Shown in pieces: positions 32,699 through 35,600 of a stretch of DNA of 64,000 bases. Origin of the DNA: Apostichopus japonicus (taxonomy: Eukaryota; Echinodermata; Holothuroidea; Aspidochirotida; Stichopodidae). The stretch covers positions 8,703,764 through 8,767,763 of the forward strand of contig NC_092583.1 in assembly GCF_037975245.1 (NCBI RefSeq), in the 5' to 3' direction. Position 1 is the first letter of the stretch. The number at the start of each line of letters is the position of its first letter. The position numbers were made by a program, and so were the translations under genes. Under the pieces are notes generated by a model that worked only from the letters and a program-made list of their open reading frames with translations, was not told where the DNA came from and did no database searches.

Positions 32699-35600
32699 CT
32701 TCCTCTTTACCGACAGCGTCGGGGTTCTGAAGCGGATCCAAATCGGCGAAGAGATTAAACCAGGCTGTCATATCGGGTTTGGCGCCCTCTTTTCCAAATG
32801 CTTGGGGTTTACTGGAATCCACCATATTTTGCACAGGTTTCTGTTGACTTGAGGCTTGCGCAATGGCCTGTTTCTCCAGATCTGCAGCGGTTGCCGTTTG
32901 TTGGGGTGCGAGCAAGTCCTCACCTGAAGGACCAGCTGTGTTGTAAAGAGAAAAAAAGTAAATAAGTAACAGGGTCATCTATGAGAAATCACTTTCCTCC
33001 AGACGTTTCATACTTGGTCTGGGATCAGAGAACATGATCTTTGATACACAGAGGTATGGCATACTTCCTGAATCTAATCCAGATCATAGAAAGCAGAGTT
33101 TGATACATAGAGGTATGACATACTTCCTGAATCTAATCTAAATCAAAGGAAGCGTGTTTGATACACATAGGTATGGCATCATACTGATCCAGATCAAAGG
33201 AAGCAGTGTTTGATACACAGAGGTAAGGCATACTTCCTGAATTTAATCCAAATCAAAGGAAGCAGTGTTTGATACACAGAAGTATGGCATACTTCCTGAA
33301 TCTGATCCAGATCAATGAAAACAGTCTCTGGGAAGAACTGCATACTTTTGTTTGATCCAAAGAAGTCTTCTCAAGTATGATCTGGATCAAGCCAAACAGT
33401 GTTTGTTACACATAAGAATTGTACATGCATAGTAACTGACAAATATTGTATAACTTGACTTGATCTGAAGAGCATTTAAATGCTGAAAGTTGGTGATCAA
33501 AATTCCAATAACGATTTTATCTGTTGATGAGAAAGTCTACCAGAGTGCCTTGGTTTTGATCGGCTGGGTTCCCTTATTGAGTACTACTGGATAATTTTTG
33601 TAAAGCTGCTTTACGCACCTGCTCAACTGAGGACAGCGTGTGTATACGAAGAGGGCGGGAAACTAACGGAGGGAATTCGTGTCATTGCCACCCACTTTAT
33701 GGATTACACAGATTTTACATAGAGTGTTGGTCGTCTCCACAAAACAGTCCCAAAATCATCCCTCCCAACGCAAGAAAAGGATACTTATCGGGCTGCAAAT
33801 GACTTCAAAGTTCTCTAGCATCCAGTAGATGGAAAACCTCTCAAATCCTAAGTTACCGTACGTATATGGACGAAAGCCAAAGGAAAAAAATCCACTCGAA
33901 AAACATGTGTTCAGGTACTTTGGATGGTAGAATGAGGACATTGACCGGAGGGGCTGGTCATCAAGGGGTGTACAGTGTAAAAAGGTTACCAGGACATTAG
34001 GCACGGTAGAACGAGGGTGCTTAGGTTGTAGGGAGATAGGTAAGCGAGGTAAATTTGATCGACTGCGAAGCTTTATCACTACTTTATTACTCAGGGATGA
34101 GCCTGGGGTAAAAAAAAAAAATCACAGAATTTTGCAAAAATTGCGGTATAGGCTCCAGTTTGCATATGCTACAGTGTGTTAGGATAATAGTTTTGCAAAG
34201 TTGCTCACCTGAGGGTTTGTTCACCCTTTGCATCATGCTCGATACATCCAGGAGGTCTGATGGGAGGTACCTCTGCGCTGCTTCGCTGATCGTGCCATCG
34301 TCGTTCGTATGCGCTGACTGGTCCAACCCCTCAAAGAAGGAACTAAAACTGAACGGCTCATCGGGAACTGTGGAGGGCATGTTCAGGATTTCGTGCAGGA
34401 GGGCTAATTCTTCGTTTCTATCTGCTGGAAGCTGCTGGAGTGGCTCCTCAGAAAGAAGGTCCAGATCGGCGTATTTATCTATCACAGTCATTAGAAAAGT
34501 TTTCAATTAATAAAAGTGGTGGTACGTGTAAATAATAAATAAAATATACCTGTTAAGGTATCTTTGCCCTGTTGCCAGGTATCTTTGCTTTGCTCTCTTA
34601 TGAACCATGTACTAACCTGCTATGGTTTCTTTGCCCTGTTCCCCTATGAATCATGTTCTAACCTGTCAGGTATCTTTGCCCTGTTCCCCTATGAATCATT
34701 TACTAACCTGCTATGGTATCTTTGTCTGTTCCCCTATGAACCATTCACTAACCTGTTATGGTATCTTTGCCCTGTTCCCCGATATCTTTGCCCTGTTCCC
34801 CAATGAATCATGTACTAACCTGTTATTGTATCTTTGCTCTGTTCCCCTATGAACCATTCACTAACCTGTTATGGTATCTTTGCCCTTCCTCTACACCATA
34901 TACTTACCTGTTATAGTGTCAATGCCCTGTTCCCCTATGAATGTTGTACCTACCAGTTATGGTGTCGTCGCCCTGTTCACCGGAGTTCCCCATCATACCG
35001 ATAAAGGCGCTTTGCTCCTTATCAGCCTCACTGACGTCCCCAGACTTGCCATCTGCGGGTGATGGCCAAGCTAAAAGTTGGCTTTGTTGACTTGAGTCCT
35101 CGCCGAGAGATATCAATCTGTGACGATATAAAAAAAAAAATGATTAAACTTGACAAAGCCACATAGCATCATGATTTAACAAATGTAAACATTTTCAATT
35201 AAATTAAAATATATTTGATGTGTTGATGGTGAAAGAGACAAATCTTACACCTAAAAGTAGACACAAGTGCATCATGGGTACAATAGGTACGCTGCACTCT
35301 GCACCCGTTAACAACTGTCTCTTTTCATGTACAAATTTCCCTGTGGAGAGCAAAATCATGTTTCAAACACACAGCTTAACCCTTTCAATCCACTACAACA
35401 CACCCCTCACCTTAGTTACGTGTTTTAAACCCTGATTCAAAATACATTACCGATTCAGAAAAATCATGTTGCAAACACACAGCTAGACCCTTTCATTCCT
35501 CTACAACACACCCCTCACCTAAGTTCCATGTTCAAACACCGATTCAGAATACATTACCTCCGCCTGGCTGCAGTCTCTCCATCCTCCCCATTCACTTCTT

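Follow-up and report, generated by a model that had tools for sequence, protein, structure and literature searches.

The window, i.e., the whole 64-kb stretch of DNA that was analysed, carries ICA1 on its minus strand, the gene being confirmed by two separate ORFs with Pfam matches to Arfaptin and ICA69. When seven exons of the window were joined, the resulting protein matched Arfaptin with an E-value of 9.4e-58 and ICA69 with an E-value of 3.1e-26; the latter match is one stretch that covers profile positions 1-234 of 241 and spans the junction of exons F and G, which supports exon F, its frame and the next exon. The name exon F is used here for the putative exon 9 of the initial annotation. 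By its frame, the donor at 34953 would be required for the full-length ICA1 protein, and from frame and domain continuity we infer that it is used. The features of the locus are as follows.

35349 to 35558, minus strand: a further tandem duplication that includes a donor, in the ICA1 intron before exon F, with one copy at 35558-35457 and the other at 35451-35349.
34954 to 35117, minus strand: ICA1 exon F, 164 nt, with phase 1 end CTG/gtaggt, placed by frame, splice sites and the Pfam ICA69 match across it.
34936 to 34981, minus strand: unit 0, the boundary copy of the array, with 28 nt of the exon F end and 18 nt of intron; 36/46 identical to the unit consensus in the wraparound alignment.
34549 to 34935, minus strand: intronic array of 7 full units of 44-46 nt (U1-U3, U5-U8) and 3 partial units (U4, U9, U10), with 8 donor copies.
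34919 to 34921, minus strand: in-frame TGA, retained whichever of the 8 downstream donors exon F is extended to.
34902 to 34910, minus strand: CAGGTAAGT, perfect donor in U1, 46 nt beyond the real donor and without a second instance on either strand of the 64-kb window.
34671 to 34886, minus strand: higher-order repeat, 1.9 copies of a 112-nt block with 95% matches (Tandem Repeats Finder).
34820 to 34846, minus strand: U3, candidate microexon, 27 nt, in frame, GEQSKDTIT, with weak acceptor context.
34617 to 34643, minus strand: U8, candidate microexon, 27 nt, in frame, GEQGKETIA, with a branch-site-like motif and no pyrimidine tract.
34479 to 34548, minus strand: unique intron end with the real acceptor (gtgatag/ATAAATAC), 70 nt.

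The array in the intron after exon F is real and lies on the minus strand. Tandem Repeats Finder reported overlapping arrays at 34549-34978, with periods including 45, 46, 91 and 112 and a top score of 397, extending into the exon. Alignment to the 46-nt consensus started at 34981, within exon F, and ran to 34578; the final copy ends at the donor at 34549, with no recognisable spacer beyond it in this alignment. The unit consists of the last 28 nt of exon F and the first 18 nt of the intron, the exon end being copy zero. Besides the real donor, the donors at unit positions 34907, 34865, 34819, 34752, 34707, 34662, 34616 and 34549 bear out the description in the initial annotation of an exon end repeated with its donor about nine times. 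Also correct was its observation that several units have gained an AG at their start: where a spacer ends in A, this base and the first G of the next unit form AG, with 27 nt from AG to GT and a spacer of 19 nt. Such an AG opens 6 of the 10 intronic units (U1, U2, U3, U6, U7 and U8), all six with a donor, and is absent from the start of U4, U5, U9 and U10. It is followed by GGGAAC in five of the six and by AGGAAG in U2, and the AG-to-GT lengths, in the order given, are 27, 25, 27, 26, 26 and 27 nt.

Relative to the 46-nt consensus, which was built by eye so that the homogenisation gradient leans towards the interior, unit 0 differs by 10 substitutions, U1 by 7 and the other six full units by 2 to 4, indels apart, while the partial edge units U9 and U10 hold 5 and 3 within their short lengths. 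The 95% matches between copies of the 112-nt block suggest a recent change in the array, in the form of a recent block duplication. In sums made by hand from the unit alignment, with the same by-eye consensus, the seven full intronic units (U4, U9 and U10 excluded) carry 12 substitutions in 196 positions of the exon-like part and 13 in 126 of the spacer. In 3 of the 7, the reading frame of the exon-like part is disrupted by indels; there is therefore no visible coding constraint.

The resemblance between the array and the exon end is stronger than expected by chance. None of 200 shuffles matched as well as the intronic array did to the donor region of exon F itself. When 15 boundaries were compared with the array on both strands, donor F alone reached 0/200, with a query that overlaps the array by 2 nt; a separate test with a query free of this overlap likewise gave 0/200. 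Together with the composition of the unit, this upholds the proposal that the array derives from copies of the exon end with its donor. Of the seven ICA1 donors and seven acceptors compared, donors E and F reached the 0/200 level; donor G came next (8/200 shuffles as good for the match in its intron), and no acceptor fell below 39/200. The array after exon F also matched donor G at 2/200, a level expected by chance given the 120 comparisons made. The original boundary of the duplication is not recoverable, since there is no likeness between the unit and the exon sequence preceding unit 0, or between the spacer and the intron sequence that follows the last copy. The idea that array sequence extends into the exon upstream of unit 0 was rejected: the best match was 7 nt, and shuffles did equally well in 855/2000 cases over the full upstream exon and in 96/2000 over its last 29 nt.

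Further candidates for boundary copies were rejected. A copy of the exon G donor at the start of exon H (12-nt alignment, score 19, 11/2000 mononucleotide shuffles as good) is probably a chance match, because its centre is the donor consensus CAGGTGAG, and donor A reaches 17 against exon H. For the arrays at 33040-33315 and 18802-19126, none of the 15 boundaries matched at 2/200 or better. The first, located in the ICA1 intron that precedes exon H, is a minisatellite of 59-nt units that stops ~105 nt short of the exon H acceptor. The second is a minisatellite with a 69-nt unit; ~100 nt downstream of it, near 18700, follows an apparent acceptor, where exon-like sequence may code for WD repeats (judged by eye only; the ORF there had no Pfam match).

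In the preceding intron, the duplication at 35349-35558 has two copies with a period of 107 nt. Its first position is the last exonic base of exon E, and donor E was thereby duplicated as well. Based on a hand-entered list, 980 of 8119 intron bases from exon B to exon H (~12%) fall within tandem duplications; by rough arithmetic, chance alone would place ~1.7 of 14 boundaries in one, compared with the two seen, and we thus claim no enrichment at ICA1 boundaries. Just upstream of the exon E acceptor, a 32-nt repeat at 35716-35783 has two copies that are 91% identical with a spacing of 36.

The array places strong donors directly after the real one. With a crude matrix based on mammals, the real donor scores 8.25, the U1 donor 12.77 and five other copies 7.93; the real donor being the weaker, the sequence alone would not predict the correct choice. 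Seven donors of the exon F intron, the real one included, score at least 7.9; over the same stretch, five other ICA1 introns have between 0 and 2 such donors. The initial annotation had offered three ideas for the array, one of which was a reservoir of splice donors. As a means of lengthening the protein this is ruled out by the sequence: each of the eight alternative donors retains the TGA at 34921-34919, and none can therefore extend the reading frame.

We consider it quite probable that the array is a minisatellite of the type called mirages, i.e., minisatellites spanning an exon/intron boundary, which were named in amphioxus Adh3 and also reported in globin genes (PMC3087553). A tandem duplication would have taken in the boundary and then grown through slippage or unequal exchange. 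Full-length ICA1 would be made from the weaker first donor (34953); the array copies would be mostly ignored in splicing and most of them are probably inert. Some transcripts may use the U1 donor, keep the TGA and then be degraded or yield a truncated protein. Array length would be expected to vary between individuals. It is most likely that the array is neutral in origin and that its decoy donor may send some transcripts to decay; to the exon-like peptides we assign no selected function.

The idea of decoys that tune the splicing of exon F is the best of the three that had been put forward, because of the perfect donor in U1. On this idea the array would set, through its copy number and through that donor, the share of ICA1 transcripts spliced unproductively. 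That the only CAGGTAAGT of the window sits in U1 is in keeping with it, as is the single premature stop common to all eight extensions. Moreover, among 5082 windows of 478 nt, only 5 contain as many as seven donors with such scores (7.9 or higher), and each of these includes part of the array. T at +3 is rare in real donors, and its presence in 6 of the 7 intronic donors other than that of U1 weighs against the idea. Although human IFI6, in which downstream minisatellite units are used as splice donors (PMC4526556), offers a precedent, mirages elsewhere are described as leaving splicing undisturbed (PMC3087553, PMC3902484); for amphioxus, RT-PCR of globin and data on Adh suggest regular splicing despite them (PMC3087553). 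Decoy competition with unproductive splicing may thus occur and is a fair and testable prediction, while a decoy function of the array as such appears unlikely. In a more elaborate form, the array would be a switch that varies with copy number: unstable, with perfect and near-equal donors past the real one and one stop, it would let array length and the levels of U1 snRNP set the amount of ICA1. To this we give a slightly smaller chance. If it were true, and the host is not a cephalochordate, boundary minisatellites would be a wider animal phenomenon.

G triplets act as intronic enhancers, and the GGG runs of the units might help the exon F donor or the weak acceptor to be recognised. Runs of at least three G number 14 in the 387-nt array, compared with 40 in five other ICA1 introns totalling 7644 nt, and 12 of 15 validated ultra-short human introns are G-rich (PMC4463651). 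However, 18 of 5090 windows of array length reach the same count of G runs, windows over the array itself included, and the G richness comes with the unit and so needs no selection. A special RNA fold of the region was also rejected, its fold being ordinary (z 0.59; 70/100 shuffles fold at least as well). An enhancer is therefore very improbable.

The third idea was a source of microexons, in which single 27-nt units would be included as alternative exons repeating the peptide GEQGxDTIT. The three units named for this purpose (34908-34934, 34820-34846 and 34617-34643) are indeed 27 nt long, but the other three AG-bounded units shift the frame, which is kept in only 3 of 6. The further statement that any single unit could be spliced in does not hold: U2, U6 and U7 measure 25, 26 and 26 nt; U4, U5, U9 and U10 lack the AG; and U1 (34934-34908) would need an upstream intron of 19 nt. 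We exclude U1 on this length, given that a survey of human ultra-short introns screened introns of 37-65 nt (PMC4463651). Two units, U3 and U8, are feasible by length and frame, being open and in phase, with upstream introns of 107 and 310 nt calculated from the sequence. Their acceptor context is poor in U3 and mixed in U8. In the crude matrix their AGs (3.61 and 2.14) outscore the real exon G acceptor (0.42), and U8 has a CTRAY motif at -26 that is as good as the real ones and is found in 3 of 7 real acceptors, i.e., absent from four. Nevertheless, the longest pyrimidine run before the AG (-30 to -3) is 3 in the five units tested, U2 left out, compared with 4-14 in seven real acceptors. A YTNAY-like branch site occurs in the stretch examined in one of the same five units (U8), and not in U3, compared with 7 of 7 real acceptors. 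Additionally, indels break the frame in three of the seven full units, and in-frame candidates arise easily in such a repeat: 42 AG-GT pairs lie in the intron at 9-60 nt with a donor score of at least 5.7; 19 of them have a length divisible by three, and 13 of the 19 are open. Overall, the microexon idea is weak, and we regard inclusion of such units as highly improbable.

Elsewhere in the window, a stop-to-stop ORF of 462 aa at 57448-58836 matched Pfam DDE_Tnp_1_7 (E 1.6e-78) and is presumably a piggyBac-type transposase. No match to it was found among the viral contigs scanned; a contig of a Pseudomonadales genome bin (L001:1001-1282) gave a weak match, 37% identical, which may be host contamination of the bin. 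Another stop-to-stop ORF, of 278 aa at 10453-11286 on the plus strand, had no Pfam match, and no Rfam family scored above threshold in the window.

Arrays of this kind put many donor copies beside a real one and are thereby natural tests of donor choice by the splicing machinery. If full-length ICA1 is made, the machinery must pass over a perfect site 46 nt from a weaker one. Boundary arrays may, in addition, be raw material from which new introns and exons arise. PMC3443670 reviews intron gain through tandem genomic duplication, the AGGT model: as in that model, the duplicated ICA1 segment carries AG and GT signals, and its copies could become new splice sites. Unlike in that model, the ICA1 acceptor in use lies outside the repeat, the expansion is within the intron and no intron is bounded by two copies. 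Such a gain was rejected for this intron, since the real acceptor region resembles nothing in the intron, the array included (197/200 shuffles as good). Donor F scored 8 against the start of exon G, the joint lowest of 49 donor-exon pairs.

The minisatellite of human IFI6 (6-16) has multiple splice donors (PMC4526556, PMC2572611) and resembles the ICA1 array in that its units offer several of them. In IFI6 two downstream units are used and give different isoforms (PMC4526556), whereas in the ICA1 array every downstream donor keeps the same stop.

The closest likeness, by architecture only, is to the mirages of amphioxus (Adh, BflGb6, BflGb9, troponin C and PGBD5), in which the repeat holds the exon/intron boundary and copies of the splice signals are left in the intron. 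Troponin C and PGBD5 were added as mirage genes in PMC3902484; in PGBD5, repeats of 60 bp and 108 bp abut 5′ splice sites, and their number differs between two genome versions (PMC3902484). One amphioxus globin gene has two haplotypes with 6 and 3 units, and the mirage literature notes that the copies could act as cryptic sites (PMC3087553). In BflGb6 the interior units are homogenised and the edge units are not (PMC3087553), and the ICA1 array is alike, with a unit that spans the boundary and, relative to a by-eye consensus leaning towards the interior, a homogenised interior with diverged edges. The cases described in the literature cited here are all cephalochordate (PMC3087553, PMC3902484). 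The present array differs from the amphioxus mirages in its gene, in its 46-nt unit, in its nine donors counting the real one and in the involvement of two neighbouring introns; going by titles and the openings of abstracts, no description of such an array in ICA1 was found in the open-access literature searched. Judged from its structure, the ICA1 array is thus probably a mirage-type minisatellite and a further case of a known arrangement, and ICA1, with two donor-containing duplications in neighbouring introns, joins a short list of genes.
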